33,937 nucleotides of DNA, taken from contig FCNA01000140.1 of assembly GCA_900018345.1 (NCBI GenBank), forward strand, positions 1 to 33,937. Direction: 5' to 3'. This DNA comes from Clostridiales bacterium CHKCI006 (GTDB taxonomy: Bacteria > Bacillota_I > Bacilli_A > Erysipelotrichales > Coprobacillaceae). Under the pieces are notes generated by a model. The model worked only from the letters and a program-made list of their open reading frames with translations. It was not told the DNA's origin and searched no databases. Made by a program: the position numbers and the translations under genes. Within the stretch, counting starts at the first letter, position 1. Every line of letters starts with the position of its first letter. Below, piece after piece: positions 5,127-24,340 of the stretch.

Positions 5127-5232
5127 ACTGGCTATTCACCATAATAATACGAACTCCCGCAGACACTTTCTCATTTTTTCTCTATGCATGATGGGGTTTT
5201 CTTTTACTGTCGCTTGGCAGATGATAGAAATA

Positions 5233-5586
5233 TCATGTTTCAATATTTACTAATTCCCGCACCTTCGACAAGAAGTCATAATCGGTTTTACAACAAAATC
5301 CCCCGCTATACTGCTTAGCCTCTTTTTCGAGCCTCTTATCATCACCACCAGACATAAGCAGGAATGGTGTTGTCAAATCCTTTTGACGTATTTCTCTAAG
5401 CAAGTCTAAGCCGGTGCCATCCTTCGCTATAATCGGAGCAAATTTCATCAATTTCGATATTTCCCAACACCTGTAAGGCTTCTTTAACACCAGATGCTAC
5501 ATAAATTTCAAATTCTTTTCCCAAAACAGTAACTAAAAACGCTAAGTAATCTAAGTCATCATCTACAACAAGTATTTTTTCATTCT
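5233..5586 (-). pseudogene. Response-regulator receiver domain with two frameshifts
   Basis: Read on the minus strand after AAGGAGG, the expected product starts KILVVDDDLDYLAFLVTVLG, which carries the acidic pocket of a CheY-like receiver. One A seems to be missing from the A run after the ATG, because the annotated frame ends at once. A second shift of one base lies near 5420: EICSDY in one frame continues as KDGTGLDLLREIRQKD in another. The protein ends in FLSKVRELVNIET. Only a single receiver domain of about 115 residues is present. It lies 13 bases after the GT51 fragment on the same strand, as if from one operon. Confidence 0.65.
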
Positions 5587-5599
5587 TATTTCATCCTCC

Positions 5600-6115: not shown

Positions 6116-6116
6116 T

Positions 6117-6749
6117 ATGAAAGAAAAAGACAGGGATGTCCGTGCGGCAGACGAGGTTGAAATCGTTGATATCCTCCAAGCCTGCACCAACATCCGTGAC
6201 CAGCTTCTACTCCTGCTGATAGCAGAAACCGGCTTCCGCATCGGAGAAATCCTCGGCTTGGATTATACCAAAGATATTGATTATAAACAGCATAACCTCA
6301 AGGTGTACTTTCGGGATGATAACGATAACGATGCCCGCGCCAAGAATGCGGAATACCGTTCAGCGAAGATAAGCAACGACACCTTCGAGTTCCTTATGCA
6401 TTATCTGTCGGAATACCGGATTCTGCTCCAGCATCAGAATCTGCTGTTCATCAATATAAAAGGAAAGACCGCTGGCAGACCGATGAGGGTGGAAAGCGTT
6501 TACGATATGCTGGAACGGATGGAAAAGAAAACAGGAATCAAGCTGACTCCTCATATGCTCCGCAGATACTACGCCGTATCAAGACGGAATTCAGGCTGGG
6601 TGCTGGAACTGATACAGTTAGCCCTCGGTCACAAGCATCTTGATACAACGGTTAAATATCTCGGCATACTGGACGATCAGCTCATGGAAGCAAGCCGGGA
6701 ATTTTATGAGAAGCACTCGGATCTGTACGGCATCAAGAATTTGCTATAA
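6117..6749 (+). pseudogene. Tyrosine recombinase 1 of a three-recombinase block, N-terminus lost
   Basis: This fragment of 210 residues is the catalytic domain of a phage-integrase-type recombinase. It has ETGFRIGEILGL (first Arg), HMLRRYYAV (His-x-x-Arg), LALGHKHLDTTVKYLGI (His and the nucleophilic Tyr). TnpA-like proteins of this group are about 350 residues, so roughly 140 N-terminal residues (the core-binding domain) are missing. Sequence upstream of 6115 is the antisense of a GT51 gene. The next recombinase begins within 16 bases of the stop. The catalytic residues look intact, but without the arm- and core-binding region function is unlikely. Confidence 0.75.
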
Positions 6750-6764
6750 AGGATGTGGAATGAA

Positions 6765-8495
6765 ATGGCGGTGCTTGCATTAAAACAGGTTGAAACACAA
6801 CAGGACGCTTCGATTCTGCAAGCACGGCTGCAGAAAGAAACCTCCGAAGTCAAAAATCCGTATAAAGGCAAAGTGATTGAATTCATGGTGAGCGAAGACA
6901 TGGAAACCATAGCTGACCTTGACTATCCGGCAAGGGTAAGGTTTGAAAAATGGCTGCCAGATCATACAGACTCGGCAGAATATCGTCACTATCTGGTCTC
7001 GTTTGATAGGATAAAGCAGTATTCGGTAAGTAAAGAAATCCACATTGCAGCGGATGGAAAACCTGTCCGTCCGAATTATGAGAACACAATCCTGTTCCTG
7101 CTGTATCATCCCAACCCGGACATCCGGGCGATGTTCCGAAAAGCCACGAAGAAACACGAATTGGCATGGGATTTTACACGGGCTGTACCGGAGAAGCTAA
7201 AAAGGCAGATTTTCGATATCCTGCACTATGCGTTAGAAAATGACACAGCCTTTGAAACAAGGCGCAAGCATCTGTTAGGACTGAGAGAACTGTACGATTT
7301 CTGCGCAGACGAAAAAATCGATGACATCGAGCAGATGGAGCTGGCGCAGGAACAGCAATTCAAAGGCCTTGACAGTGAACGGCTCAAACCCTGCAACCGA
7401 GTCGGAATCATAAGTTTTTGCCGAAAAGCACTGTTCATGCAGACCGAAAAGATTAACTGGAATGCCCATGTCTGGTACATGGAACGTTTTCAGATACAGC
7501 CAGAAAGGCTGGATGCGGCAAGTCCGGTATCCTCAATCTCCTTCACAGAGGTTACGCATAAGAAAAACCGGGAATTACTGAAAAAATACATCCGATACGG
7601 ACTTGGCATCACCAACCTGTCGGTGAGTGTGATTCGCGGAGAACATTCTGCTATCCGAAATTTTCTGAACGATATATGCCAAGATGAAAATGAGGATGTA
7701 TGCTCGGTGACTCCGGCACAGATGGATGACTACTTCAAAAAACAGCGACAGCGATCGGTACAAGCTGAAACCTACAATAAGAATGTCATGTGCATACAGC
7801 ACTTCTTCAATTTTCTCAAGGTTCGGCAGTACATTGAACGGATACCCTTCGATGCAGAATGCTGTCTGAAGAAAATAATCCCACGGCATCTTGACCGGAG
7901 TGTAGCTCAAGAGGCCGCGGATGAAATTCTCGAAAAGCTCTGCTGTTTCCCCGAAACGATAAGGATCATGTACCTGCACCTTTGGGGAGTCGGCCTGCGC
8001 ATCAGCGAGGTATGCACCTTAAAGGGCAACGCCTACTACATACAGGGCAAGGACGCTTGGATTCAGGTGTATCAGATAAAGATGAGAACTTATAAGCGAA
8101 TCCCGATTCCGGACGCCTTGTATAAGCTAACGAAGGTTTATCTGAAAAAGCATGGCATCAAAGCGGATGATTATGTATTCCAAAATGCAAAAGGCGGCGC
8201 ATACTGCAAGTCAACCTTCCGCTACAATATGTTGAAATACTGCGAACTCAACAACATTCAGAACGGCGGCTATGTGTTCAAATCCCATGATTACCGCCAT
8301 ACGATAGCGACCTATTTTTACGACACGGGCGTATCGCTGCAGAGTATCCGTGATTACCTCGGTCATGACTACGAAGAAATGACCGAGCAGTATATCGACT
8401 ATATGCCAAAGAAAATTGAAAAAGCAAGCGAGGAATACTTCAGCCGGCACAGTCTGGCGGCTTGCATGAAAAGAGGTGAAAAGACAGATGGATAA
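6765..8495 (+). CDS. Tyrosine recombinase 2 of the block (TnpB-like)
   Basis: This large tyrosine recombinase of about 576 residues resembles TnpB of Tn554-like elements (about 630 residues). A long N-terminal part of about 390 residues, including a SAM-like core-binding region, precedes the catalytic domain. The domain has WGVGLRISEVCTL (Arg), KMRTYKRIPIP (Lys), KSHDYRHTIATYF (His-x-x-Arg), DYLGHDYEEMTEQYIDYM (His, Tyr). The start at 6765 is chosen because AAAGGATG lies at a proper distance; an in-frame ATG at 6753 is too close. It overlaps recombinase 3 by 8 bases. The gene is complete and looks functional. Confidence 0.85.
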   Translation: MAVLALKQVETQQDASILQARLQKETSEVKNPYKGKVIEFMVSEDMETIADLDYPARVRFEKWLPDHTDSAEYRHYLVSFDRIKQYSVSKEIHIAADGKPVRPNYENTILFLLYHPNPDIRAMFRKATKKHELAWDFTRAVPEKLKRQIFDILHYALENDTAFETRRKHLLGLRELYDFCADEKIDDIEQMELAQEQQFKGLDSERLKPCNRVGIISFCRKALFMQTEKINWNAHVWYMERFQIQPERLDAASPVSSISFTEVTHKKNRELLKKYIRYGLGITNLSVSVIRGEHSAIRNFLNDICQDENEDVCSVTPAQMDDYFKKQRQRSVQAETYNKNVMCIQHFFNFLKVRQYIERIPFDAECCLKKIIPRHLDRSVAQEAADEILEKLCCFPETIRIMYLHLWGVGLRISEVCTLKGNAYYIQGKDAWIQVYQIKMRTYKRIPIPDALYKLTKVYLKKHGIKADDYVFQNAKGGAYCKSTFRYNMLKYCELNNIQNGGYVFKSHDYRHTIATYFYDTGVSLQSIRDYLGHDYEEMTEQYIDYMPKKIEKASEEYFSRHSLAACMKRGEKTDG

Positions 8496-9999
8496 CCGGA
8501 TTTATTTATGGGATTTATATGACGAGGCAGAGAAAGCGAAATTCTTGAAAAAGCAGATCAACAAAAATCCATATTACGACTTAGAACCGATACCGGCATC
8601 AAAGCTGCGTGAGGAAATAACGGATTTTATAAAGTGGCGAAGCACGCAGGTCTGTTTAACGAGGCTGTATAACGACCTGCAGCAGTTCAAAAAGGTGTGC
8701 CGGTTTTTACAGGATACTGCCAAACCCGGTTCGAGCCTGCATGACATAAGTGCAGAGGCATGGATAAAGCGGTTTAAAATATGGATGTTCAAGGAACAGA
8801 TGCCTTTATATAAAAGACAGACCGCCATCAACGGAAACACCTTAATGGTAAAGGCTCGGGAAATATCCTACCTTGAACGCATGTTGAAATTCCTCTCAAC
8901 GGATAACCGCCAGGAAGAAGAAAAGGATATCTGGGAGCTTGATAAGCTCGGCATCGAGTTCAGAGCCAATCCGATCAAGAGAGTCCGAACCTTAAACTTC
9001 ACAAAGATATCGCAGGACGGTATCCAGCAGGAAGTGAAAAAAGGCATCTACCTCAACCTGCAAAGCGAAGCCATCGCCTGCGTGATAAAAGAACTGACAG
9101 CAGTGCGGAGGTTGTCACGGTATCTTGAAGAACGGCAGCCAGACATCCAGTCCTGCAAGGACATCAGCCGCAAGGTGGTTGAAGAATATCTTGCCTACCT
9201 CAAAACAGAGGCAACGGAAACCAAACATTTCCATGCAGACCTAAACCGCCTGCGCTGCCTGCTGGAAAGCATCGGTCAGATGTGTGATTATCCGAATTTA
9301 ATCGGGCTGTTTCTTACAAGAGATATTCCGCAGACGCCGAAAGCAGCCTTCAAAACTTATTCGGACGAAGAACTCAAGCGCCTCAACCGGGAGATTGTCA
9401 AGCTGGATGAGCAGACTGCAAGGCTGATGATTATCCATCAAATGCTCGGCACACGAATCTCTGATACACTGACGCTCGCTCCCGACTGCCTGTCGGAAAA
9501 AAACGGTGAAATCATTATCCGAATCCGGCAAATGAAAACAAAGCCTTATGAAAAACCAATCAGTGCAGAGCTTGCAGCTTTAATCCAAATGGCAATTGAT
9601 TATACCAAAGAAAAATACGGGGATACCCCTTACATCTTCGTGGATGATAAAGATACAGCACACGCTATGCCATATACCAAAGTGCAATATCGAGTCACGG
9701 CGATGATTTACGACAAGGACTTAAGGGATGACAACGGTGAGCTCTTCGGATTCAGCACACATATCTACCGGCATTATTACGGCGTAAAGCTGACAGAAAT
9801 GCATCTGGATGATTGGACTATCGCCAAGTTGCTGGGACACAGCAGTGTCCGGAATGTAAAATACTATCGCAAGATGAGCAATCAACTACTTGCCGATGAA
9901 ACCCGAAAGGCACGGCAGAAGCTCTCGGCGATAATATTAAACAACTTAGACGGATGGGAGGATGAATATGAGCAAATACGAAAAGATGGTCGCCTGTAA
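8488..9999 (+). CDS. Tyrosine recombinase 3 of the block
   Basis: The 503-residue recombinase carries a full catalytic set: MLGTRISDTLTL (Arg), MKTKPYEKPIS (Lys), THIYRHYYGVKL (His-x-x-Arg), LLGHSSVRNVKYYRKM (His, Tyr). The N-terminal 300 residues form the DNA-binding part and are basic and helical. The start at 8488 follows AGAGGTG; the GTG at 8476 is a less likely start. Overlap with recombinase 2 and with the following small gene (about 30 bases) implies one mRNA. Three adjacent tyrosine recombinases in one direction define RIT-type or Tn554-like elements, whose members act together at one target site. Confidence 0.85.
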   Translation: MDNRIYLWDLYDEAEKAKFLKKQINKNPYYDLEPIPASKLREEITDFIKWRSTQVCLTRLYNDLQQFKKVCRFLQDTAKPGSSLHDISAEAWIKRFKIWMFKEQMPLYKRQTAINGNTLMVKAREISYLERMLKFLSTDNRQEEEKDIWELDKLGIEFRANPIKRVRTLNFTKISQDGIQQEVKKGIYLNLQSEAIACVIKELTAVRRLSRYLEERQPDIQSCKDISRKVVEEYLAYLKTEATETKHFHADLNRLRCLLESIGQMCDYPNLIGLFLTRDIPQTPKAAFKTYSDEELKRLNREIVKLDEQTARLMIIHQMLGTRISDTLTLAPDCLSEKNGEIIIRIRQMKTKPYEKPISAELAALIQMAIDYTKEKYGDTPYIFVDDKDTAHAMPYTKVQYRVTAMIYDKDLRDDNGELFGFSTHIYRHYYGVKLTEMHLDDWTIAKLLGHSSVRNVKYYRKMSNQLLADETRKARQKLSAIILNNLDGWEDEYEQIRKDGRL

Positions 10000-10261
10000 C
10001 CGAAAGAGCAGTGCGGACAAGATTGAACTTGCTAAAAAGACAATCTTTAAAATGCTGGATGAGGGAGAGAAAATAACGATTCCGAAGCTGATTGCTAAGA
10101 CAGGATTGTCGAGAGGATTTTTTTACAAGAACCCCATTGTACGAAGCACACTGGACAAGGCACTTGAACAGCAGGTCGGAATGACTGATCCCCGAAAGAA
10201 CATTCTCGATATGGCGATGGACAACGAAATCGTTGTATCATTCTTCATATTATGTCCGTAA
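9968..10261 (+). pseudogene. DUF6262/TnpC-like DNA-binding protein, C-terminus lost
   Basis: The frame begins MSKYEKMVACNRKSS, with GGGAGG six bases upstream, and contains IPKLIAKTGLSRGFFYKNP and QQVGMTDPRKNILDMAMDN. That is the helix-turn-helix-like core of the small TnpC/DUF6262 proteins that close Tn554-type recombinase operons and bind the element ends. After about residue 87 homology stops and the frame runs through the antisense of a sortase gene to a chance stop at 10261. The usual C-terminal coiled coil of 30-40 residues is therefore missing. It marks the broken right end of the recombinase block. Confidence 0.7.
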
Positions 10262-10668
10262 ATCACAGTATGCCGGTCTGAAAAATCTGCGCTGTTGCGG
10301 TAGTCCATAAAAATGGTCCCTGCCGTGTTCCAAGAGCCGTCCAGCAGGCGACGAAGGTAGTAGCTGTTATCCTCGGTCTGCGCCACCGGATAGTTTATCT
10401 TGGTATCGGGGCAGTGCAGCCATGCGATGATGTCCTTGTTTTCTGTCTGTAAAACCTCAAAATCTACTATGATCGGCGCAGTTTCCTGTACAGATTCTTG
10501 TTCCGACTGGTTGCTTTCAGCGTCCTGTGGAAGTTTCATTACTGCTTCCTTCGTAAGTGAATCGTTCAAATTTTGGCTTTCCAGCATTTCCAGCAAATAC
10601 CCTGAAATTTTATAAATAGATAAAGCCGCAATTATCAGGCATACCGCCACAATTATAATTTTTTTCAT
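10221..10668 (-). pseudogene. srtB: Class B sortase, 3' half lost
   Basis: The protein begins MKKIIIVAVCLIIAALSIYK, an N-terminal membrane anchor. A charged linker and a sortase core follow: DIIAWLHCPDTKINYPVAQ, TIFMDYRNSADFSDRHTVIYGHN. The histidine of YGHN is the catalytic His of sortases. The catalytic cysteine (TLxTC) and arginine should lie about 80-100 residues later but are missing, because the recombinase block joins near 10225. It lies last in the minus-strand surface operon, downstream of two SPQTG-bearing proteins, which are plausible substrates. Start at 10668 rather than 10683, because the hydrophobic anchor then begins directly. Inactive as it stands. Confidence 0.8.
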
Positions 10669-10700
10669 TGTTAATAGTTCCATCGCTTAAATTAGCACAA

Positions 10701-10775: not shown

Positions 10776-12647
10776 TTATTTAGCATGCAGTTTTTTTCTT
10801 TTGCTGTAAACCGCCATACCTATAACACCGCCGCAGGAGGCCAACATTAGACCAATCCACAGCATCATATTGCTGCTGTCTCCGGTCTGGGGGCTTTCTG
10901 TTTGCTCAGAAGGCTTGCCAGGCTGTTCGGGCTTGGCTGGGTCAGTCGGGTCTGTAGGGTCTGTAGGAGTGGTAGGGTCGGTGGGCTGTTCGCTGGTTTC
11001 AAACGGTGTGTTGGAACCAAGGATAGCATACTGGCTCAGATGGGTAGTCTCAAATACCAGGAAGTCTCCTTCCACCACTGCATCAAAGCGTTCCAGCGGG
11101 TCACCCAGATATACCGCCTGGTAGTATTTGTAGCCCTTCAGGTGGTCGTTCATCGGGATTTTGACCGTCATGGGGTTGTCCTTGATTTCCAGAGCTTTAC
11201 CGTCTTTTCTAACGCTGATGTCGTAAATGGACAGCAGGCCCGGCAGTTCCTCTTTCAGTTCCGGACGGCTTCCCAGCACGCTTTCCTGCGCGATGGTGTC
11301 AGCAGAAAGCTCTGCTCCCTCTGGCACGCCGTCGGTCAGGGAGATGGAAACGCCGGTTTCGGAAGCAGTCAGATCTTTGACGCCAGTATCCTCACCAGGT
11401 TTTGTTCCAGGATCAGTGCCCGGATCGGTAGAAGTCCCGGACGGGGATACTTTGATCACATCATTGGTGCAGTAGTAGCTATACATGCCGGTCTTTACCA
11501 CGTTGGTGGTATAGCCTGCCGGAATATCTTCTTCGGTCGCACCGCTGACGCCTTCTCCAGCCACAGGCACTACAATTTTTGTCAGGGTTGTCTGACCCCA
11601 ATCCTCCGCAGTTACGTCATCAACGGCGGTCTGATAGACCAACCACTGGGAATGATTCGGGTCTACTCCCCAATAAAACCTCTGCCCGTCCTTGATCAGC
11701 ACTGTCATAGAGCTGATATCGCCTATTTTGGCGCTGATGGTTTCCCCTGAGTCGGTATATCCCTCAGGCAGAGCGTCCTTTTCAAGTCCGTCAACGGTAG
11801 CAATTTGAACGGCAAGATATTCTTTTTGGCTAGGAAGTCCTTCCACCTTCACCAGCTCGTGGATATAGCCCACAGGCTTGCCGTTTGTTAAATCGCTGCC
11901 GGTGTAGATTGTTCCGTAATTAACGCCGTATTTCTTTCCGTCCTCGCCCTTGGTGAGAACCTTCCAGTCTTGAGCAACATAGTTACTTTCATATATGACA
12001 TTTTCCCATTCGGTGGTCTCCCCCTCGATGCCGGAATTGGCGGTCAGGGCAAGCTCTGTTTCCAGATTACCTGTGAAGGGAAGGGTTGAGGATGTTGTCG
12101 ATACAAAGGCCGCAGAATAAGTGTTTTCACCTGCGCTCTTATACGCTGTCACAGAAGCGTTTGAGCCGACCTTGAGCAGACCCTGTGTTCCCTCGGCCAT
12201 AAAGCGGATCGCCGCAGTCTGAGACGTTTTGTTTTCATTGATGGTCAGGGAGCCGTCTCCGGTAATTTCCAGATTGCCGCCCCAGCCGAAGCCCCATACA
12301 ACCAGTTCGGCGATATGATTGTCACCCACCAGATGAAGCTTCAAATCGTCGCCCATCTCGTTGGTGGCAAGGGTCATTTCCGGGTGGTTGTAGTTTGTCA
12401 GGGTGATGGTGTTGGTAGCCTTGTCATAGACAGCGCCCTCCACCGTGTCAGCCTCGCCGCCGTTGCTATAAAGTACATAACCAAAATAGCTGCCATCGGG
12501 TTCTTCTACACTGCTATCATACAGCTGCACCCATGCGGCGCTCATGTCCCCGGACGAGGGGCCGTTCGCCGCAAACGCCGGCACAGCCATTCCAACAGCC
12601 ATACAAAGCGTCAGCAGTCCTGCAAGAAGTTTGCGCTTTAGTTTCAT
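10776..12647 (-). CDS. SPQTG-anchored surface protein A
   Basis: A signal peptide (MKLKRKLLAGLLTLCMAVGM, cleavage likely after AFA) precedes a secreted region of about 400 residues of unknown type. That region has glycine/threonine-rich beta-structure, for example GGNLEITGDGSLTINENKT. Residues about 430-555 are a module almost identical to one in surface protein B. A TDPT/TPTDP spacer and a sorting signal follow: SPQTGD, a hydrophobic stretch and KRKK. SPxTG is accepted by class B sortases of clostridia. Start at 12647, with AAAGGAG eight bases before the ATG; the upstream TTG would put charged residues before the signal. It lies in the minus-strand operon before the sortase fragment. The ligand or role is unknown; probably a cell-wall adhesin or coat protein. 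Confidence 0.8.
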   Translation of the reverse strand: MKLKRKLLAGLLTLCMAVGMAVPAFAANGPSSGDMSAAWVQLYDSSVEEPDGSYFGYVLYSNGGEADTVEGAVYDKATNTITLTNYNHPEMTLATNEMGDDLKLHLVGDNHIAELVVWGFGWGGNLEITGDGSLTINENKTSQTAAIRFMAEGTQGLLKVGSNASVTAYKSAGENTYSAAFVSTTSSTLPFTGNLETELALTANSGIEGETTEWENVIYESNYVAQDWKVLTKGEDGKKYGVNYGTIYTGSDLTNGKPVGYIHELVKVEGLPSQKEYLAVQIATVDGLEKDALPEGYTDSGETISAKIGDISSMTVLIKDGQRFYWGVDPNHSQWLVYQTAVDDVTAEDWGQTTLTKIVVPVAGEGVSGATEEDIPAGYTTNVVKTGMYSYYCTNDVIKVSPSGTSTDPGTDPGTKPGEDTGVKDLTASETGVSISLTDGVPEGAELSADTIAQESVLGSRPELKEELPGLLSIYDISVRKDGKALEIKDNPMTVKIPMNDHLKGYKYYQAVYLGDPLERFDAVVEGDFLVFETTHLSQYAILGSNTPFETSEQPTDPTTPTDPTDPTDPAKPEQPGKPSEQTESPQTGDSSNMMLWIGLMLASCGGVIGMAVYSKRKKLHAK

Positions 12648-12718
12648 GATTGATTTTTCTCCTTTCAAGATAACATTTATGTGAATACACGGGTTTGATC
12701 ATTCTTTTTGGTGTGTCA

Positions 12719-12819: not shown

Positions 12820-12869
12820 TTCTTTATGCTTTGGTGAATACCAAAGCATAAAGAAGGGATATCCCTTCT
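12820..12869. repeat. Double-hairpin repeat, copy A
   Basis: Arms 12820-12835 and 12840-12855 pair over 16 bases around a GAAT loop (core ATGCTTTGGT/ACCAAAGCAT). They are overlapped by a perfect 18-base palindrome, AGAAGGGATATCCCTTCT (12852-12869). It lies between the InlB fragment and surface protein A. Copies B and C lie at 13048-13090 and 15174-15215. Confidence 0.8.
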
Positions 12870-13047: not shown

Positions 13048-13090
13048 TATCCTTTGGTGCATACCAAAGGATAGAAGGGATATCCCTTCT
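13048..13090. repeat. Double-hairpin repeat, copy B
   Basis: TATCCTTTGGT (13048-13058) pairs with ACCAAAGGATA (13063-13073) around GCAT. The perfect palindrome AGAAGGGATATCCCTTCT (13073-13090) follows. Compared with copy A, both arms of the first hairpin carry a compensating change (ATGC/GCAT against ATCC/GGAT). It separates surface protein B from the InlB fragment. Confidence 0.8.
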
Positions 13091-13183: not shown

Positions 13184-15142
13184 TTATTTCCCGGCCGCTG
13201 TTTTTTTCCGTTTGTAGAACAGCATCCCCAGCAATCCGCCGCAGGAAACCATCATCAGGCTGATCCACAGCGCCATATTGCTGCTGTCCCCGGTCTGGGG
13301 GCTTTCTATTTGCTCAGAAGGCTTGCCCTGCTGTTCGGGTTTGGCTGGGTCGGTTGGGTCAGCCGGGTCAGCGGGGTCTGTCGGGGTGGTCGGGTCAGTC
13401 GGCCCAGCCGGATCGGTGGGATCTGTTGGAGTAGTGGGGTCAGTTGGGTCGGTGGGGTCGGTCGGCTTTTCGCTGGTTTCAAACGGCGTGTTAGAACCAA
13501 GGATTGCGTACTGGCTCAAATGGTCGGTTTCAAACACGAGGAAGTCTCCTTCCACCACCGCGTCAAAGCGTTCCAATGGGTCGCCCAGATACACCGCCTG
13601 ATAGTATTTGTAGCCTTTCAGGTGGTCGTTCAGCGGGATTTTCACCGTCATGGGATTGTCCTTGATTTCAAGGGTTTCCCCATTCTGGCGGACGCTGATG
13701 TCGTAAATGGACAGCAGGCCCGGCAGCTCCTCTTTCAGCTCCGGACGGCTTTCCAGTACGCTTTCCTGCGCGATAGTATCAGCGGAAAGGGTCGCGTCCT
13801 CCGGCACACCGTCGGTCAGGGAGATGGAAACGTTGGTGTCGGAGTTGGTCAGTTCGGTAACATTTTTCTCCCATTTTGCGTAAACCTGCATATCATACGC
13901 ATTGATCCACTCGTCGCTTGCGGTATTTGCAATCCGGCTTTCATCTGTGCAGTCGGGCGATGTATACCAGCCTGCAAAGGTGTAACCCTCACGCACGGGG
14001 ATAACCCCTCCGATGTCGAAAAACTGTCCGTTTTCCACGCTCTTGAGGTCAATTTCACGGATAGCTTTTTCCCCGTCCTTCAATGCTCCGCCGTTGGGAT
14101 TGAAAGTAACCGTACAGCCTCTTGTAAAGATTGGCGCCAAGTTTTTGTCCCCTGCCCCATATCTTAAACCGTTTTCAAAATCAAAGGTTATAAAGGTTTT
14201 ACCGTCTTTTACCGTTTTTGTTTCACCCGAACCAATAATTGTATCATACCCTGATTCTCTCCAGTTTTTAAAATGATAGCCGGGCCGAACAGGATTTGGC
14301 AGAACAATCTGCTGCTCTTCCCGCTGGATATAATAGCGGTCAGGCAAATCCGCCAATTCTTCCTCGGTAAAATAGTTTTCCACGCCTTCATAGTTTATAT
14401 TGTAATAAGGCTCATAAAAGGTAACATAGAACTGAGAGAAACCTCCGCCATACATCGATTGTACAGGCCCATGACCGACGTGTCCGCAGCCTTCTGTGCC
14501 CACTTCCTCGCCTTCGGCTCCCTTGCCGCCGGCATAACAAGCTGTTAAAAGCATGGGTAAACCAGTATTGTTAACATATCCTGCATTGAAAGTATGCCCC
14601 GGAAGTTCGCGTGCCGCTTCCAAAGCGGACTGTAAATTACTATATTCTTCTTCCCCATAGGCTGATGGGTCGATCTCTAATAACTTGTTTTCATAGGCAA
14701 TCTTTATCGCATTGTCATAATATTTTGTTATGGGTTCCAGCTTTGACAAATCCGGCGTGCTGGTTGTTAAATAGCCATCACTTACATACCTCGGTTCATG
14801 AGCACTGTAATTAGGACTATCAACATATCCCAAATACAGGTCTGCATTCATGAATTGAACCGTAGTTATATACTTCCAATACTGACCGTCCGCCGTGATA
14901 CACATGCAATTGCCCTTGTGAATGTCCGTGTTGGGCTGTGCGGTGAAACTCTCGCCGGGCATAACCAGTATATCCATGTTGGTTCTATGCGTATCCTCAT
15001 TCAAAACGTGGTCTACGTGTGTGTATTTCGGGCCGTCAGCGCCCTGCTCCTGTTCAGCAGGCGTAGTGGCTGCGGCTGCCGGTACGGCCATTCCCGCCGC
15101 CATGCAAAGCGTCAGCAAACCTGCAAGTATTTTTCGCTTCAT
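13184..15142 (-). CDS. SPQTG-anchored surface protein B with InlB-type repeats
   Basis: The 652-residue protein starts with a signal peptide (MKRKILAGLLTLCMAAGMAV, cleavage after AAA), 9 bases after AAGGAGGAA. An N-terminal region of about 300 residues of unknown type is followed by InlB/Flg_new repeats: one at VRPGYHFKNWRE, and a clear one from TVTFNPNGGALKDGEK to GYTFAGWYTSPD and MQVYAKWEK. Residues about 435-560 (SISLTDGVPEDATLSADTIA to HLSQYAILGSNTPFETSE) match the module of protein A. A long TDPTDPT/ADPADPT wall-spanning spacer and the sorting signal SPQTGD, hydrophobic stretch and KRKK follow. Likely a wall-linked adhesin or binding protein. The substrate is unknown. Confidence 0.83.
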   Translation of the reverse strand: MKRKILAGLLTLCMAAGMAVPAAAATTPAEQEQGADGPKYTHVDHVLNEDTHRTNMDILVMPGESFTAQPNTDIHKGNCMCITADGQYWKYITTVQFMNADLYLGYVDSPNYSAHEPRYVSDGYLTTSTPDLSKLEPITKYYDNAIKIAYENKLLEIDPSAYGEEEYSNLQSALEAARELPGHTFNAGYVNNTGLPMLLTACYAGGKGAEGEEVGTEGCGHVGHGPVQSMYGGGFSQFYVTFYEPYYNINYEGVENYFTEEELADLPDRYYIQREEQQIVLPNPVRPGYHFKNWRESGYDTIIGSGETKTVKDGKTFITFDFENGLRYGAGDKNLAPIFTRGCTVTFNPNGGALKDGEKAIREIDLKSVENGQFFDIGGVIPVREGYTFAGWYTSPDCTDESRIANTASDEWINAYDMQVYAKWEKNVTELTNSDTNVSISLTDGVPEDATLSADTIAQESVLESRPELKEELPGLLSIYDISVRQNGETLEIKDNPMTVKIPLNDHLKGYKYYQAVYLGDPLERFDAVVEGDFLVFETDHLSQYAILGSNTPFETSEKPTDPTDPTDPTTPTDPTDPAGPTDPTTPTDPADPADPTDPAKPEQQGKPSEQIESPQTGDSSNMALWISLMMVSCGGLLGMLFYKRKKTAAGK

Positions 15143-15173: not shown

Positions 15174-15215
15174 TATCCTTTGGTGTAAGCAAAGGATAGA
15201 AGGGGCGCCCCTTCT
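15174..15215. repeat. Double-hairpin repeat, copy C
   Basis: TATCCTTTG (15174-15182) pairs with CAAAGGATA (15190-15198). The palindrome AGAAGGGGCGCCCCTTCT (15198-15215) is perfect although its centre differs from copies A and B (GGCGCC against GATATC), so both sides changed together. It lies about 32 bases before the surface protein B start, in the leader region. Confidence 0.8.
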
Positions 15216-15267
15216 AAAAATTTTTCCTGCCGGCTGCCTGGGACAGGTTTTGCATGAAGCCCCGCCT

Positions 15268-15304: not shown

Positions 15305-15490
15305 TTATTCCTCGACCACCACCTTTTTCCGCCTGCAGTCCAGTATTCCCAGTACGCCGCAGGAGACCAGCAGAACGATATAGACGGCGTTTTGCCCTTT
15401 ATCGCACTGGAGCGCTCTGCGGGAGAGCGGCGCCCTGCATTTCGGACAGAATTTCACGCTTGGGGCCGGCCGCTGTTCCTTACACAGCAT
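15305..15490 (-). CDS. 61-residue zinc-ribbon/membrane peptide
   Basis: The peptide has CPKCRAPLSRRALQC in its first half, a compact rubredoxin-like or zinc-ribbon knuckle. A membrane segment, VYIVLLVSCGVLGILD, and a basic tail with CRRKK follow. The membrane/tail part resembles the anchor ends of the two surface proteins (for example MVSCGGLLGML..YKRKK), and the DNA just after the stop is identical to that after surface protein B. It may be a zinc-ribbon gene fused to a surface-protein 3' end. Its ATG overlaps the previous gene by 11 bases, which implies coupled translation. Function unknown. Confidence 0.5.
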   Translation of the reverse strand: MLCKEQRPAPSVKFCPKCRAPLSRRALQCDKGQNAVYIVLLVSCGVLGILDCRRKKVVVEE

Positions 15491-15824
15491 AATGCCGATC
15501 CTGCACGAAACAGCGGCGGTTGATCATCAGCTCGTTCTCAAGGTACTGGGCGACCATATCGGCTACGGCGGTCACCGCCCGTTCCTCTCCCTTGGCCGAC
15601 AGGCCGGGACAGGGATCACTTACGGAAACCGTCAGTCCGGTTCCCGTGTCGCATATCTCCGCCGAAAGGCTGAAGGTGCTGACGTTCCCGTAAACCGAAA
15701 GCCGGGCGACCACCGCGCCGCTTTCATTCTTCCAGTATTCCGCACCCTCCGCGTCCAGCACATCGTAAACAGCCATCTGCACATACCGCCGGACATAGGG
15801 AAGGAGCCTTTTCACTTGACGCAT
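15480..15824 (-). CDS. Small protein of unknown function, paralogue of its upstream neighbour
   Basis: The 114-residue cytoplasmic protein starts MRQVKRLLPYVRRYVQMAVY, an amphipathic helix. About four beta strands follow (SGAVVARLSVYGNVSTFSLS), then SDPCPGLSAKG and a C-terminal helix (VADMVAQYLENELM). Length, helix-strand-helix plan and the PCxG(L/M)S motif match the next gene upstream (15933-16268), so the two are paralogues. No signal peptide, membrane segment or known catalytic motif is seen. It lies between the operon start and the surface genes and overlaps the zinc-ribbon peptide. I do not recognise the family. Confidence 0.6.
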   Translation of the reverse strand: MRQVKRLLPYVRRYVQMAVYDVLDAEGAEYWKNESGAVVARLSVYGNVSTFSLSAEICDTGTGLTVSVSDPCPGLSAKGEERAVTAVADMVAQYLENELMINRRCFVQDRHYAV

Positions 15825-15932
15825 TCCGTTTCTCTCCTTTCGTTTTAATCGCCATACAGAGCGGAGAACTTCTCCTGCACATCACCGCAGTGCCGACCCA
15901 TCAGTCACACGGCAAGATTCCGAAAAGCAGTA

Positions 15933-16268
15933 TCATTTTGCTTTGGCATCATCCGTTCCCTCTGTCATCAGGATATGTTCCAAATGCCGGACAATCTGAT
16001 CCAGCATCTCCTGCATACTTCGAGCCACCTTCTGCTTTGACATTCCATCGCAGGGGCGGCGCAGTGAAATCGTCAGTTCAGTTCCAAACGCTTTTTCCTC
16101 CGCCGTTATGGAAAGGGAGACGTCTGTTCCGTCCTCTCTCCATTCGGCAATAACCCTTCCCGGCTCTTCCTCCCCAAAAGTAATCCCTTCCTGCCGCAGC
16201 ACGCCGTACACCGAGCGCAGGACAAAGGAGCGCGCATAGGGAAGTTCTCTTTGAACGTATTCCATCAT
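15933..16268 (-). CDS. First gene of the surface operon, small protein of unknown function
   Basis: The 111-residue protein starts MMEYVQRELPYARSFVLRSV and contains beta strands (DVSLSITAEEKAFGTELTIS), RRPCDGMSKQKVARSM and a C-terminal helix, DQIVRHLEHILM. It is a paralogue of the following 114-residue protein. The start is supported by AGGAGGAGAAGAA before the ATG. It is the first gene downstream (minus strand) of two tandem palindromes and is likely the lead gene of the transcript through the surface proteins to the sortase. No secretion signal. A chaperone or regulatory role for the surface proteins is only a guess. Confidence 0.6.
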   Translation of the reverse strand: MMEYVQRELPYARSFVLRSVYGVLRQEGITFGEEEPGRVIAEWREDGTDVSLSITAEEKAFGTELTISLRRPCDGMSKQKVARSMQEMLDQIVRHLEHILMTEGTDDAKAK

Positions 16269-16393
16269 TTCTTCTCCTCCTGAATTTTTGGGGAACCGCG
16301 GCAGACGCCGGGAAGTGGATTCTTACGCCCTCATTTTAGGTGAAAAGAGGCCGGATTGTCTATGCGTAAATCCCGCCAATCGTATAAAACAGG

Positions 16394-16442
16394 TGGCGGT
16401 GAACCGCCATTTTTCAAAAAACCGATGGCGGTCAACCGCCAT
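16394..16442. promoter_or_regulatory. Two tandem palindromic operators upstream of the surface operon
   Basis: TGGCGGT-GA-ACCGCCA (16394-16409) and ATGGCGGT-CA-ACCGCCAT (16425-16442) have centres 32 bp apart, about three helical turns. They lie about 125-175 bases before the first gene of the minus-strand surface operon, and the LuxR-type regulator gene is the next gene upstream. Dyads of this size suit a dimeric LuxR or XRE protein. The rest of this 420-base gene-free stretch holds an inverted repeat (16445-16494) and the luxR terminator. A -10 sequence could not be fixed. Confidence 0.6.
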
Positions 16443-16444
16443 TT

Positions 16445-16494
16445 GTGCATATTATATAAATCAAAGCAACTATTTTGAGGCTTTATATATGCAC
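16445..16494. repeat. AT-rich inverted repeat beside the operators
   Basis: GTGCATATTATATAAA at 16445 and TTTATATATGCAC ending at 16494 are imperfect inverses, with AAGC/GCTT extending the arms. This could be part of a promoter or a cruciform. Function unknown. Confidence 0.35.
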
Positions 16495-16633
16495 AACTTC
16501 TAATCGTTCCAAATAGGGGTTGAGGTGTACTTTTCGTTCCTGATTTTTCCTTTCCCGGATGCCGAATGGCGTAAATTTCATTTTTCAAGTGGGGAAAACG
16601 ATGTTTTTTATCAGGACAATTCGTTACCGCACA

Positions 16634-16673
16634 TAAAAAACACCCTGCCTCTCCTGAGAGAAAGCAGGGTGTT
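16634..16673 (-). terminator. Terminator of the LuxR-type regulator gene
   Basis: Read on the minus strand, AACACCCTGC (16673-16664) pairs with GCAGGGTGTT (16648-16639), with an inner TCTC/GAGA stem, and is followed by a T run. It lies 15 bases after the stop of the regulator. Confidence 0.88.
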
Positions 16674-16688
16674 CTTTTATCCTGTATG

Positions 16689-18104
16689 TTAATCGTTACG
16701 GTAAAGCAGGTACATGGTGATGCGGGATTTTGCGCCCGTCTTTTCGTACAGGGCGGAGATATGCCGTTCCACCGTCCGCTTGGACAGGAACAGGCAGTCG
16801 GCGATCTCCTGGGCGCTGCTGTCCGAAGAAATCATCTGGGAAAATACATCCCATTCCCGTTCGGTCAGCCCGTATTTTGCGATGAACGCCTCCCTGCGCT
16901 CTTCGTCCGACTTTTGGGAAGCAGGCGGCTCCTTGGGCTCCATGACGGCGTTCATGCGGGCGGTATACACAGCCATAGCAACGCTGACCGCCACGAACAG
17001 CACCAGGGCGATGACAATGGCGGCCAGGCTGTTGCCAGTGGCCAGCAGCGCCACCGATCCGTTGGTGATCAGGGCGGCGCTCACGTTATTCATGGCGCGG
17101 CCCATGCCCGCCCACAGCGACGGTAGGCGCATATGCCGGGAAAGCTCCATAAAGCCCGCTGTGAAGAAGACAACGAAAAAGCCCGAGGACAGGTAAAAGA
17201 CCACCAGTCCGATCAGGAACGGAGCGCCCAGGTTCAGTACCACAATGGACAGAACCGACATCATCATCACGCAGTACATAATAAGCCCCATATACTTCCG
17301 CTTGCGGATATCGAAGACAAAGCCTGCGGCGAGGCCGCTGAATGCCAGCAGCAGGCGGGGCCACTGCCCGATATCCGTCCCGCTCGCATGACGGAGAGTC
17401 ACGGCATTGTCCAGTGTGCTGAACACGCAGGCCATCAGCACTACCAGCAGCGCCAGCATAATGCCCGCCGTCCGTTTTTTCCGGGTGAGGGAAATGTCTT
17501 CCGCAGGTTCCGAAGAGGCGCCCGCAGTCTCCGTCATTTCGATGCGGCTTTGGGCGGCCTGTCTCGTTCGGATGACCAGCAGGCTCAAAGCCGCCAGGAA
17601 TACCGAAAGAAACGCCGCCTCCGCAACCTCCAGGTTGACAAGGTTGTTGTTTGCATACTGGAGCAGAATTCCCAGGGCGTAGGCGATCCCCGCCAGCCGT
17701 GCCAATGCATTGTCGCCGTCTATGGTGACGGCAGCCAGATAGTGGACGGCGCTGCCGAAAACGCCCAGCAGCAGGAAGAGCACCATCCCTGCTGTCATAG
17801 TCGCCGCATAGGAGATATGCTGCTGGACAATGAAGGTACAGATAATCGCACCCAGCGCCAGGATAAAGGTCAGCGCGCTTTTATAGCGCCTTCCAACCCA
17901 GCGTTCCATGGCCGGATACAGGAAAAAGCCGACGGCGCTGGCGCCCAGCGCATAGTTCTGGGCAATGACGGTTTTCCCTTCCGTCACCGACAGGGAGATC
18001 ATATTGACAAACAGATATTCCGCACCTAAAAAGACAAAAGTGAAAATGCCGACCAAAAGGATAAAGTGAATCGCCGGCTTGTTAAAAACAAAATGATGTT
18101 TCAT
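16689..18104 (-). CDS. Membrane-bound LuxR-family one-component regulator (12-TM domain plus HTH)
   Basis: The 471-residue protein has about twelve hydrophobic segments laid out like an MFS transporter (residues about 10-395), with a central cytoplasmic loop of charged residues near 190-210. A linker and a LuxR DNA-binding domain follow from about residue 410: GLTEREWDVFSQMISSDSSA, LFLSKRTVERHISALY, KTGAKSR. This membrane-sensor/LuxR fusion is common in gut Eggerthellaceae and Lachnospiraceae. The start follows GGGGGTG at nine bases. It has its own terminator, and the neighbouring minus-strand surface operon carries tandem palindromes, so it is the likely controller. It is markedly GC-richer than the flanking chromosome, which suggests transfer. 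The signal sensed is unknown. Confidence 0.88.
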   Translation of the reverse strand: MKHHFVFNKPAIHFILLVGIFTFVFLGAEYLFVNMISLSVTEGKTVIAQNYALGASAVGFFLYPAMERWVGRRYKSALTFILALGAIICTFIVQQHISYAATMTAGMVLFLLLGVFGSAVHYLAAVTIDGDNALARLAGIAYALGILLQYANNNLVNLEVAEAAFLSVFLAALSLLVIRTRQAAQSRIEMTETAGASSEPAEDISLTRKKRTAGIMLALLVVLMACVFSTLDNAVTLRHASGTDIGQWPRLLLAFSGLAAGFVFDIRKRKYMGLIMYCVMMMSVLSIVVLNLGAPFLIGLVVFYLSSGFFVVFFTAGFMELSRHMRLPSLWAGMGRAMNNVSAALITNGSVALLATGNSLAAIVIALVLFVAVSVAMAVYTARMNAVMEPKEPPASQKSDEERREAFIAKYGLTEREWDVFSQMISSDSSAQEIADCLFLSKRTVERHISALYEKTGAKSRITMYLLYRND

Positions 18105-18121: not shown

Positions 18122-18328
18122 CTAGGGTTCTTTTACGATCTCAACCACATCGCCGATGTCGCAATCCAGAGTCAGGCAGATCCGTTCCAGTACGGAAAGA
18201 GCCACATATTCATCCCTGTCCAGCTTCGCCATAATAGAGGGGGCAATTCCTGTCATTTTCGACAAAGCAGAAGGCTTTATCTTTTTATCTATCATCAGCT
18301 TCCAAAGCTTATTGTACTGAACCGCCAT
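18122..18328 (-). CDS. XRE-family small regulator
   Basis: The 68-residue Cro/C1-type helix-turn-helix protein begins MAVQYNKLWKLMIDKKIKPS and contains ALSKMTGIAPSIMAKLDRDE and LERICLTLDCDIGDVVEIV. It is the small solitary XRE type with the DNA-binding helices only. ATG at 18328 is chosen because GAGGTG lies six bases upstream; the GTG three codons earlier lacks spacing. It ends 17 bases before the LuxR-type gene, so the two are probably co-transcribed. Its start codon lies inside a 14-base match to the operators upstream of the surface operon. Confidence 0.85.
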   Translation of the reverse strand: MAVQYNKLWKLMIDKKIKPSALSKMTGIAPSIMAKLDRDEYVALSVLERICLTLDCDIGDVVEIVKEP

Positions 18329-18580: not shown

Positions 18581-18835
18581 TCACAGCAGATAGTATCGAT
18601 TGGAGGTCGCACTGCCGTTTTCACGGCAGTGCGGCTCCTTTCGTATCAGTCCGGCTTTCTCTAAATCCTTGACGGCTCGTTTAACAGTGGAACGGGAGAG
18701 TGAGAGGTGGGAGGCGATAGTGTTTAGCCCCGGCCACGCCTTTCGCTCCTTATCCATGCGGTCATGGAGATAGATATACACGAGCTTTGCCCGATGCGGC
18801 ACATCGGTTTTGTATAGCTTATCAAGTCTGCCCAT
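18581..18835 (-). CDS. Winged-helix/HTH protein of the conjugative module
   Basis: The 84-residue protein starts MGRLDKLYKTDVPHRAKLVY and contains AWPGLNTIASHLSLSRSTVK and DLEKAGLIRKEP, a classic winged helix-turn-helix of the GntR/MarR-like or replication-initiator type. It ends SATSNRYYLL. The ATG at 18835 follows GGAGG at nine bases and overlaps the coupling-protein 3' end by 14 bases. Coupling protein, then HTH protein, then short peptide is the usual order in Tn1549-like clostridial elements. Probably a regulator of transfer genes; complete. Confidence 0.75.
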   Translation of the reverse strand: MGRLDKLYKTDVPHRAKLVYIYLHDRMDKERKAWPGLNTIASHLSLSRSTVKRAVKDLEKAGLIRKEPHCRENGSATSNRYYLL

Positions 18836-19520
18836 TGGCACTCACCTCCGGCTTTGGTTCTTGAGGCGGAGTCCTGCGAGCTCTTGGGGAAGTCTGCAGA
18901 TTTGATCCGCCTGTTTTCTTCTTATCCCTTGTCTGCTGTTTTTTCGTCTGTGGTTGGCTGCTTTCGTCCTTCGCCTGATCCTGACCGCCGGATGCATTGC
19001 CTTCGTCTGCAGGTTCGGGCGGCGCTAACAGGTCAAGACGGTATTTCTTCACGATGCCGTCCATAATGTCCTTCTTCGAGGCATACTCCACCTTGCGGTT
19101 TCCCTGATCGGCAACGGCGTAGGGATTCTTCTCATCAAACTGAATGCCCCATTTGAAGAACAGTTTCAGCTTTACCTTCATCGGGTAGAAGCCTGTTTTC
19201 ATCACCACAAACTGCCCTTTGGGCATACTCTTTAATTCATCCGGCGTCATCAGCGGCCGTTCTATCATCTGCAGCGATTCGGACGGATCGTTCTTGCTTC
19301 TTGATACCGAACCGGACATGACAGTTCGGCTGCCCAAGGCTTTGGACAGGGTTTCCGCAGAAGTGCTTTGAGGAGCAAAGCCGCCGAAGATGGTGAGCTG
19401 GGTATTGTCTATGATAATTTCCGCACCTTCCTTGCCGTAGTTCTTTTCAAGCTGAGAAAAGGACTGGATGATCGGCACGATCTGCAATCGCCTTGAACGG
19501 GAGGCGGAGAACATCATTTC
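18822..19520 (-). pseudogene. VirD4/TraG-type coupling protein, C-terminal third only
   Basis: The fragment starts AEMMFSASRSRRLQIVPIIQ and continues with SFSQLEKNYG, IIIDNTQLTIFGGFAP, ALGSRTVMSGSVSRSKND and GQFVVMKTGFYPMKVKLKLF. This is the distal part of the type IV coupling-protein ATPase that links the relaxase complex to the secretion channel. A low-complexity, Gln/Lys-rich tail follows. Walker A and B lie upstream in intact proteins and are missing here. At about 19517 the sequence changes to a SpaA-type surface-protein gene. The ATG at 19517 is merely internal methionine codons. Non-functional. Confidence 0.8.
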
Positions 19521-20484
19521 TGCTGGGCATCCACCTTTGTGGTCTGTACGCTGCCCACAATAAAGCGGTTTTCAATCTCAATCTCTACGATTTCTTCGTT
19601 TTCAGAGATGGTCACCGGGTAGGTCGTTTCGTTCAATACAAATGCCGGGGCAGCTTTTAGTTCACGGATTATCCAATTTCCAAACGGTACATTTTCAAAT
19701 CCGAACACGCCGATTTCATTGGACTCGGCGGTAAGAATAGCGGTATCCTCAGTAAATTCCGTTTCGTCTGCCTTAAACAATCCGAAGATGGCGCCGCAGA
19801 TGGCAAAGCCGTCCTCGTCAATCTTCTTCCCGATGACTGAGCCTCTGATAAGCTTGTTCTCCATCGGCTGACCGTCATTTACGGAGATATTCACGACTGC
19901 CGTTTCCTGTCCTGCATAGGCAAATTCCACAGGATAGATTTCATCGCTGATGAGGTAATGCTCGTCTGTGCTGTATTCCTTCACATAGAGCTTTGCACCC
20001 ACCGGGAGATCTGTTGCAAAAACAGCTTTTCCGTTTTCATCGCAGGAAGCAATTTCAATGAGACCGTCCTTCGGGATAGCCATGCCCTCTGCCGCTGTGA
20101 TATCCTCGGCTGCATACAAGCCGAACTGTACCGAGAGGATTTCGCCGTTCTGTCCGATACCGAACTTCTCGTCCTGTTCCAATACTTTGGAAAGGTCAAT
20201 CTGCACACGCTGGCGCTCGTTATAGAATGCGGAGGAGACGGATGTGATTTCCACTTCCTGTCCGGCGTAGACAAGTTCCACGGTCTGCGGTTCGGGATTG
20301 AGCGCCATGCCGTGCGGCGCTTTGGTTTCTTTGATTTCAAATTTGCCGAGGTACAACGGTTCGCCTGTAGCAGTGCCGTCTGTACCTGTGGTGATTGTCG
20401 CTACCACCTCTCCTGCAGAGTAGCGGAGCGTTCCGTCCAAAGTATAAACATCTTCGATTGCAGTGATTTCATAAACTGCACGCC
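19514..20484 (-). pseudogene. Internal fragment of a SpaA/Cna-B-type surface protein
   Basis: Reading from about 20484 (AVYEITAIEDVYTLDGTLRY) the frame shows repeated prealbumin-like folds. They carry LGKFEIKETKAPHG, FGLYAAEDI and VGAKLYVKEYSTDEHYLISD in one repeat, then AIFGLFKADETEF and FGNWIIRELKAAP in the next. Such domains form isopeptide-stabilised stalks of large adhesins or pilin-like proteins in clostridial conjugative elements. It has neither signal peptide nor sorting signal: the 5' end joins half an ABC ATPase and the 3' end (TTKVDAQQK, stop) joins the coupling protein. About 320 residues of a much longer protein remain. Confidence 0.75.
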
Positions 20485-20796
20485 GGACATAATTCCGACA
20501 TATTCCAAAGACTCACGGACTGTAAGGTTCGGGTACAGACCAAACTCTTGCGGTAAATATCCAATTTGTTTTTTGATGGTTTCAAAGTTTTTCGGTTCAA
20601 CAGTAAGTCCGTTTATTTCTGCTGTTCCAGAAGTGGGAGTAAGCAGTGTTACTAAAATTTTCATCAATGTAGTTTTTCCGGCCCCATTTTCTCCTAAAAG
20701 ACCATATATCCCGTGATCAATATTCAAATTTACATGATCCAGGCTTTTTACACCTTTCTTATATTCCATTACTAAATTACTTACCTTTATTCCCAT
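20480..20796 (-). pseudogene. ABC transporter ATPase, 3' half lost
   Basis: The frame starts MGIKVSNLVMEYKKGVKSLD. It has Walker A GLLGENGAGKTTLMK (about residues 33-47) and the Q-loop region GYLPQEFGLYPNLTVRESLE, then stops resembling an ATPase after YVGIMSG. The ABC signature (LSGGQ), Walker B and H-loop are absent, so it cannot hydrolyse ATP. The remaining codons to 20401 read through the SpaA fragment out of frame. Its start overlaps the permease 3' end by 20 bases, so permease then ATPase was an operon. The GENGAGKT type with a short permease fits peptide or antibiotic export/immunity systems, but the substrate is unknown. Confidence 0.75.
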
Positions 20797-22729: not shown

Positions 22730-22763
22730 TTACTTTTTATGTGGAATTCCACATAAAAAGTAA
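22730..22763. repeat. Perfect 34-bp palindrome at the left edge of the right transposon copy
   Basis: The centre is between 22746 and 22747 (core TATGTGGAATTCCACATA) and both arms of 17 bases match without a mismatch. The right arm is coding sequence of the transposase fragment (FHIKSK). The left arm is its exact inverse and borders a different gene. In the left copy the same place is imperfect (10-base arms). Confidence 0.85.
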
Positions 22764-23238
22764 GGGGAAAATTGAGCGTTGGTATAACTCAATGCAGATG
22801 CATTGGATGGCAGGACTCAATATGGACGATTTTAAAAATATTGATCAACTGCAGGAATCTCTTTCGCTTTACGTTCAGAAATACAATCAAAGCCCACATT
22901 CTTCTCTTAATGGTCGAACACCTCAGGATCGCTTCTTTGAGGAATCCTATTTGATCAAATATATGACCCCTCAACAGATTGAGGAAACTTTCCTAATTGA
23001 AGTGGAAAGAAAAGTTTCTGCAGACAATGTCATTCGGATTGAAAATCATGATTATGAGGTCCATTATCGTTATGCCAAGCAGAAACTATTGATCCGTTAT
23101 GCACCGGACCTATCTCGTGTTTATGTCGTTGATCGCCAAACCAATGAGCTGACTGAATTAAAACTTCTCGATAAGGTAGCCAATTCCACAGTCAAGCGAA
23201 CATTTGTCCGTTTATCCAATCAGGAGGTGGATTCATGA
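22741..23238 (+). pseudogene. DDE transposase, C-terminal third only (right copy)
   Basis: Same 165-residue fragment as at 194-691, except that residue 3 is F (EFHIKSKGKIER) instead of C. F fits the expected hydrophobic residue before the KGKxER motif better, so this is probably the original base. The catalytic aspartates and N-terminus are missing. Confidence 0.75.
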
Positions 23239-24038
23239 ATTATACGGGAAGATATGGGATGGAATTCAATCCCTTCATCAAAAACTCCAAAGAGATCCTG
23301 GTAGAAACCTCTGATTATAAAGAAGTGACATTTAGATTAAATTATCTGCTTAATATCAGAGGTTTTGGTGTATTGACCGGGCAGCCTGGACTTGGAAAAA
23401 CGACGCTACTTAGAAACTGGTCTCATGCACTCAATCAGTCTGCCTATAAGATCATCTATATTTCCATGTCAACACTGACCGTTCTAGAATTTTACAGGCA
23501 GCTTGCTTCTCAGATGGGGATCGATCCCTATTTTAGAAAAATAGATAACTTCAAGGCGATCCAGGATGTCGTCATCAGATATGAGAAAGAAAAGAAGATC
23601 ATTCCAGTCATCATCCTGGATGAAGCACAGTATTTAAAACATGCCACACTCAATGATCTGAAGATCATCTTCAATTTTGAAATGGATTCACAGGATAAGG
23701 CCGTTATCCTATTAGCCGGTCTACCTCAGTTAAACAACATTCTCAGCTTGAATTCTCATGAACCTCTAAGACAGAGGATCACCATGAATTATGAGCTACA
23801 GCCACTTGACAAAGAAGAAGCCAGTCGCTATATCGAAGAAAAGATGAAAGCGGCGGGGTGTTTACAGAAGGTATTTGATTCCAACGCTATGGAAGCTATT
23901 CTTAATGCAGCAGGTGGGATCCCACGTATGATCAATAAGATATGTAATGCCTGTCTCATGACAGGGAATAGCCGAAATGAAAATATCATCAGTGCAGACA
24001 CTGTGATGGATACTGTCAATGATCTACAGCTGATATAG
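23235..24038 (+). CDS. ExeA/TniB-like AAA ATPase of the transposon (right copy)
   Basis: Identical to the product at 688-1491, with Walker A GQPGLGKTTL and Walker B VIILDEAQYL. It overlaps the transposase fragment by four bases. Confidence 0.85.
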   Translation: MNYTGRYGMEFNPFIKNSKEILVETSDYKEVTFRLNYLLNIRGFGVLTGQPGLGKTTLLRNWSHALNQSAYKIIYISMSTLTVLEFYRQLASQMGIDPYFRKIDNFKAIQDVVIRYEKEKKIIPVIILDEAQYLKHATLNDLKIIFNFEMDSQDKAVILLAGLPQLNNILSLNSHEPLRQRITMNYELQPLDKEEASRYIEEKMKAAGCLQKVFDSNAMEAILNAAGGIPRMINKICNACLMTGNSRNENIISADTVMDTVNDLQLI

Positions 24039-24052
24039 AGGGAGAATGGAAA

Positions 24053-24340
24053 ATGACTCACATACTAAAGTTACATAGTGTACGATCAGGAAATATGATC
24101 GAGTTCCTTGTATCAAGAAATGAAAATCAATTAGAAGGCGCGTTGACAAGAGGGATTCATTATAACTGGTTGGCACTGCCACAGTTGGAAGTGTCCTGTC
24201 AATTAGCTAATTTAGATGATGACTTTTGGAATCGTGAACAGCTCAGTGGAATATTAGAGAATCCTTATGATGTCGAGACATTGATCATGACCATCCACGA
24301 ACTATCTAAACAGTTTAACTATTCTAAAGCAAAAAAGTAA
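24053..24340 (+). CDS. Small conserved protein of the transposon (right copy)
   Basis: Identical 95-residue product to 1506-1793, in the same setting after the ATPase. Unknown function. Confidence 0.6.
   Translation: MTHILKLHSVRSGNMIEFLVSRNENQLEGALTRGIHYNWLALPQLEVSCQLANLDDDFWNREQLSGILENPYDVETLIMTIHELSKQFNYSKAKK

Follow-up and report, generated by a model that had tools for sequence, protein, structure and literature searches.

At the ogt promoter of Escherichia coli, the 7-2-7 sites of NarL lie at -44.5 and -77.5, and one of them abuts the -35 element (PMC7419079). A second related system is known from the Coriobacteriia, where DadR, HcdR and CadR of Eggerthella lenta are 10-12-TM LuxR activators of catechol dehydroxylase genes (PMC9734109). 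This first paper on membrane LuxR proteins calls their working mode unclear, and its main text is silent on operators (PMC9734109). In open-licence papers, we found no operator described for the membrane-LuxR class.

The window analyzed here is a stretch of 33,937 nucleotides from Clostridiales bacterium CHKCI006. It encodes a membrane LuxR regulator, with two perfect palindromes between its gene and a surface operon. We propose, with a probability of roughly 0.85, that the palindromes are upstream operators of this adjacent regulator and act on the surface-operon promoter, by a three-site activation resembling that of NarL at ogt. As at ogt (PMC7419079), 7-bp inverted half-sites with a 2-bp spacer lie in tandem about 33 bp apart and go together with a GerE-type DNA-binding domain. 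The last two predicted centres in the window (-44.5 and -75.5) nearly coincide with those of NarL (-44.5 and -77.5). In contrast, the half-site is TGGCGGT and not a NarL heptamer such as TACCCCT, the array has three sites where ogt has two, and the window regulator is membrane-anchored and lacks a receiver domain. With DadR, HcdR and CadR (PMC9734109), the regulator shares an N-terminal multi-helix membrane domain, a C-terminal LuxR HTH and a gene beside the target operon, whereas the operons here, in Bacillota, encode surface proteins and lipoproteins. The solved structures nearest to the 72-aa C-terminus of LuxR are GerE (1fse), VpsT (3kln) and VraR (5hev), with a best E value of 7.8e-8. These proteins are not membrane-domain fusions, and their recognition-helix residues differ from those of the window LuxR. 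The features of the locus are as follows.

18122–18328, minus strand: gene for a small XRE-like HTH protein of about 68 aa, upstream of luxR, assigned by sequence and motif
16689–18104, minus strand: membrane LuxR regulator, 471 aa; GerE domain at residues 413–465, with E446 preceding the invariant R447 in the recognition helix
16635–16677, minus strand: luxR intrinsic terminator, an inverted repeat whose stem folds at -26.1 kcal/mol
16426–16441, minus strand: candidate distal operator 1, TGGCGGTTGACCGCCA, perfect 7-2-7 (TGGCGGT-TG-ACCGCCA); predicted centre about -107.5; kept in cassette copies
16394–16409, minus strand: candidate distal operator 2, TGGCGGTTCACCGCCA, perfect 7-2-7 with 7-bp arms and a 2-bp spacer (TGGCGGT-TC-ACCGCCA); predicted centre about -75.5
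16363–16378, minus strand: candidate proximal degenerate operator, TGGCGGGATTTACGCA, poorly symmetric and abutting the -35; predicted centre about -44.5
16333–16362, minus strand: predicted sigma-70-type promoter of the surface operon; -35 TAGACA (16362–16357), 18 bp, -10 TAAAAT (16338–16333)
15933–16268, minus strand: operon gene 1, a 111-aa protein of no known family, related to the gene 2 product and to proteins of the L110 and L038 loci
15480–15824, minus strand: operon gene 2, a 114-aa protein, paralog of gene 1 (37% identity)
13184–15142, minus strand: surface protein with signal peptide, List_Bact repeat and LPXTG-like C-terminus
10776–12668, minus strand: second surface protein with LPXTG-like anchor

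The LuxR-type HTH at the C-terminus of the regulator matches PF00196 (E = 1.9e-11, residues 413–465). About 390 residues lie ahead of it, in which a crude hydropathy scan gives eight merged segments, some of which could hold two helices. In the operon, the small proteins come first, and the sortase-anchored proteins are encoded by the third and fourth genes.

The original prediction had described two dyads with GGCGGT/ACCGCC arms at 16394–16442, on one DNA face, between the luxR terminator and the first gene of the surface operon. Both are exact 7-2-7 palindromes at that place, and their start-to-start distance of 32 bp, about 3.05 turns, agrees with a common face. The location between the terminator (about 16635–16677) and the first operon gene (15933–16268, minus strand) also holds. 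The symmetry of operator 1 reaches 16425–16442 (8-bp arms, 2-bp spacer), and the 27-nt copies of the two operators are 89% identical. Among 1000 dinucleotide shuffles of 15900–16900, at least one exact 7-2-7 palindrome appeared in 70 and two appeared in 1, while none contained two with an identical arm. Exact matches of TGGCGGTNNACCGCCA across the 3.33-Mb genome are limited to operators 1 and 2. No wider regulon is evident from matches with up to two mismatches to TGGCGGTNNACCGCCA, which number 11 in the genome against 8 for a reversed control pattern; since near matches are about as common as those of the control, the target of the regulator looks local. An Rfam search gave no match at the palindrome site, a plasmid search gave no match, and neither the tandem operator motif nor a membrane LuxR was found in viral contigs. 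Immediately upstream of operator 1, we notice an AT-rich inverted repeat (TTGTGCATAT...ATATGCACAA) at 16443–16496. It is kept in nearly all cassette copies, with a few single-base changes, and was not seen in the diverged membrane-LuxR homologs.

The third site (16363–16378) and the promoter abutting it were absent from the original prediction. The TAGACA-18-TAAAAT promoter has 10 of 12 consensus matches, and transcription would start near 16326. Counted from this predicted promoter, the centres of the array fall at about -107.5, -75.5 and -44.5. The proximal site is in the same register as the palindromes, 31 bp from operator 2 in the window (a 1-bp difference), and it has counterparts in L110, L004 and other loci. 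Read from the sequence, the palindrome pair is the distal part of a three-site array. The degenerate proximal site may be the working site at the promoter, and the perfect palindromes, probably the strongest sites, lie distal to it.

A near-identical luxR cassette is present in 11 genomes, with LuxR proteins 95–98% identical. The hosts are Ruminococcus, Mediterraneibacter, Mordavella, Lachnoclostridium, Claveliimonas, Merdimmobilis, three Pseudoflavonifractor, Traorella and a Clostridium CAG scaffold. The palindrome/promoter segment is kept in all 11. The third element, TGGCGGG(A/G)TTTACGCA or a close variant, stands exactly 32 bp past palindrome 2 in all other copies and abuts the -35. L031 and L033 lack exactly one 32-bp unit with the register retained, and operator 2 is the sole palindrome remaining in them. 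The cargo of the operon is the set of small and sortase-anchored proteins in some copies, and lipoproteins with a glycosyl-hydrolase-family-3 protein in others. Because the cargo behind the promoter varies, the regulator-operator-promoter module is the constant part. The copies (L027–L037) lie in distant Bacillota families, with two operon cargoes and differing upstream flanks, pointing to a recent horizontal transfer of the luxR-operator cassette.

Searching about 1,770 genomes, with either LuxR itself or an alignment of 12 diverse family members as the query, revealed about 60 further homologs, mostly 20–60% identical. Many of them have a related 16-bp element just past the luxR terminator, ahead of the next gene. 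Diverged homologs with 23–59% identity show such 7-2-7 sites, often in tandem. A motif search upstream of operons beside homologous regulators had been suggested along with the original prediction. We ran it on 55 regions that lie past homologous luxR genes, leaving out the window, and the de novo motif was TGGCgCa-ct-TGTGAcc, with a log-likelihood of 107.5 against 62.7–70.8 in eight shuffled sets. Tandems of the site at 31–33 bp occur in L038, L043, L045, L062 and L090, and by reading also in L106, L107 and L110. The L110 regulator, 46% identical to the window LuxR, is accompanied by the perfect dyad TGGCGGA-AG-TCCGCCA, in which the inner pair is altered on both sides relative to the window with the symmetry preserved. 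From this dyad it is 33 bp to the degenerate TGGCGGACTTCCCTTA and 23 bp further to TATAAT, followed by the gene of a 116-aa protein that is 48% identical to the second operon protein of the window.

A generic matrix trained without the window ranked the window's sites only 231st or lower, a miss explained by the regulator-specific inner half-site. Across the homologs, conservation covers the architecture and the GGCG half-site but does not extend to the full sequence. Outside the class with glutamate in the recognition helix (E type), homologous proximal sites are often only half symmetric. No recognisable site was seen, for example, beside L041 (E type), beside L005, L042, L063 and L092 (Q type) and beside L066, L067 and L112 (Y type). 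In 18 of 24 loci, the first protein encoded past the site has a signal peptide or lipobox, as judged by eye from the N-termini, which makes ‘surface operon’, the term used in the original prediction, a fair one for the class. In L050 (1438–3789, Traorella), the frame of a 58% identical LuxR continues without a stop to 783 aa, which may reflect a fusion, a frameshift or a sequence error.

The distance from the site to the promoter was compared in 26 regions anchored on the proximal site alone, some of these sites being picked by eye. A T stands directly 3' of the proximal site in 24 of the 26, and a weak -35-like hexamer would begin with it. Of 25 loci, 15 have the -10-like TANNNT at offset 39 and 6 have it at offset 40, measured from the start of the site. 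Counts at other offsets are mostly 0–2, with maxima of 6 (offset 16) and 5 (offset 45). When sites were picked automatically by a matrix, the -10 was at offset 39 in 9 of 13 loci, against a mean of 0.36 elsewhere. The commonest layout is thus a 16-bp site, a -35-like hexamer, 17 bp and a -10 that lies 23 bp past the site. It places the centre of the proximal site at about -43.5 (-44.5 in the window), with the next site about 32 bp upstream.

We notice that the half-site varies together with the residue preceding the invariant arginine of the recognition helix. E-R helices (the window, L004, L052 and L110) are paired with GGCGG. Where the helix has Q-R, the half-site is GGCGC or GTCAC, and where it has Y (L050, L068, L070 and L111), the half-site is GAGACA. 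Fisher tests of helix residue against half-site give 4e-4 (E), 2e-9 (Q) and 4e-4 (Y), for patterns chosen after looking and homologs that are related. Two observations lessen the concern over post-hoc patterns and kinship. First, the helix rule was noted before the last five homologs were fetched, and L110, L106, L107 and L111 obey it while L112 does not (4 of 5). Second, in a tree of the membrane domain only, the E, Q and Y types are scattered over separate clades. The window regulator groups with Q and Y types (L038, L063, L050 and L111), yet its site resembles those of more distant E types. Among the homologs compared, the half-site tracks the recognition-helix residue, not phylogeny. At about even odds, this may extend to a class-wide code, in which E, Q or Y before the arginine would set the half-site (GGCGG, GGCGC/GTCAC or GAGACA, respectively) on fixed 7-2-7 tandems at about -44, -76 and, in some cases, -108.

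We see directly that the sites exist, stand in register, are conserved, keep a fixed distance from the -10 and covary with the recognition helix. The idea that the palindromes are candidate sites of the membrane LuxR gains support from the homolog motif, the match of E-R with GGCGG, the -10 spacing and the helix covariation. Because related regulators in many gut bacteria have matching sites at an equal promoter distance, and the site covaries with the DNA-reading helix, it is very probable that the membrane-bound regulator from the neighbouring gene docks at the palindromes. From these data we infer that the regulator binds, that it does so as a dimer with cooperative loading, that it activates and does not repress, and that it responds to a signal. 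In the proposed mechanism, dimers of the cytoplasmic GerE domain would occupy three 7-2-7 sites along one face of the DNA. The two distal palindromes (centred near -107.5 and -75.5) would be strong sites, and the degenerate one at the -35 (near -44.5) would be weak. The strong upstream dimers would help to load the weak proximal site, where the dimer would touch RNA polymerase and turn on the operon of small proteins and sortase-anchored surface proteins. The trigger would be a signal sensed by the membrane domain of LuxR.

Alternatively, the same LuxR could bind as a repressor, with occupancy at -44.5 beside the -35 blocking polymerase until a signal releases it. The location permits this too, the window promoter with its 10 of 12 consensus matches might fire unaided, and NarL is known to repress some promoters (PMC4549865). 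We consider repression unlikely, and favor activation because the proximal site lies near -44, the homologs have weak -35 elements and the characterised 12-TM LuxRs are activators (PMC9734109); the distal sites fit activation as well.

It is improbable that the palindromes are hairpins that terminate or attenuate transcription between luxR and the operon. Each does fold on the gene strand, into a stem of 6-7 bp closed by a tetraloop (-10.7 and -10.1 kcal/mol), a T run follows after 3–4 nt, and a pattern scan flags both. However, a far stronger terminator (-26.1 kcal/mol) precedes them, and they sit upstream of the operon promoter. Moreover, two homologous Q-type sites give no hairpin when folded, whereas the class still keeps the -10 spacing. 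The intrinsic-terminator reading was therefore set aside.

XRE-like proteins often bind palindromes. The small XRE-like protein encoded upstream of luxR might thus be the regulator to which the sites belong, its gene being adjacent in the window (18122–18328) and beside luxR in some homologs. In a simple motif search, however, this gene was not found near luxR in most site-bearing homologs, including L110 and L004, which makes the protein a poor candidate binder, and the site sequence tracks the recognition helix of LuxR. For these two reasons, operators of the XRE-like protein, or of some other regulator, seem similarly improbable and were set aside. That the pair is a functionless chance or mobile repeat is least credible of all: the cassette is horizontally mobile and short palindromes are common, but the pair is unique in the genome, its identical arms were never recovered by shuffling, and the conservation of sites in a fixed register to the promoter across homologs contradicts it.

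Small proteins of about 110–130 aa recur in operons beside membrane LuxRs, namely at 15480–15824 and 15933–16268 (minus strand) in the window, at 2128–2478 in L123 and at 92–484 in L038. They are 27–48% identical with no Pfam match above cut-off, and are possibly functional partners of the membrane LuxR. Double hairpins (AGAAGGGATATCCCTTCT beside CTTTGGTnnnnACCAAAG) are repeated before the surface-protein genes, at 12852–12869, 13073–13090 and 15197–15216, with 12820–12855 and 13048–13073. Further downstream, the block at 2031–10683 contains two tyrosine recombinases (6753–8495 and 8476–9999) and a small DNA-binding-like ORF. It ends within a class B sortase gene (10123–10683), which matches positions 5–137 only of a 235-position model, and looks like a Tn554-type insertion truncating the sortase of the operon. 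Upstream of luxR, 18822–20796 (minus strand) is a patchwork of truncated genes, with serial fragments of a conjugation coupling protein, a SpaA-like surface protein and an ABC transporter. Apparently one insertion-sequence-like set of three ORFs (165, 267 and 95 aa) is present in two copies, at 194–1793 and 22741–24340.

Our analysis provides concrete candidate operators for a membrane LuxR, adds a predicted promoter geometry and a specificity rule that can be tested, and finds them conserved in several orders of gut Bacillota. If the code is true, many uncharacterised membrane LuxRs could have their operators and targets read from sequence. The findings also connect the membrane-LuxR class with the regulation of surface-protein and lipoprotein genes, and with a cassette that appears to have moved recently between distant families with differing cargo.
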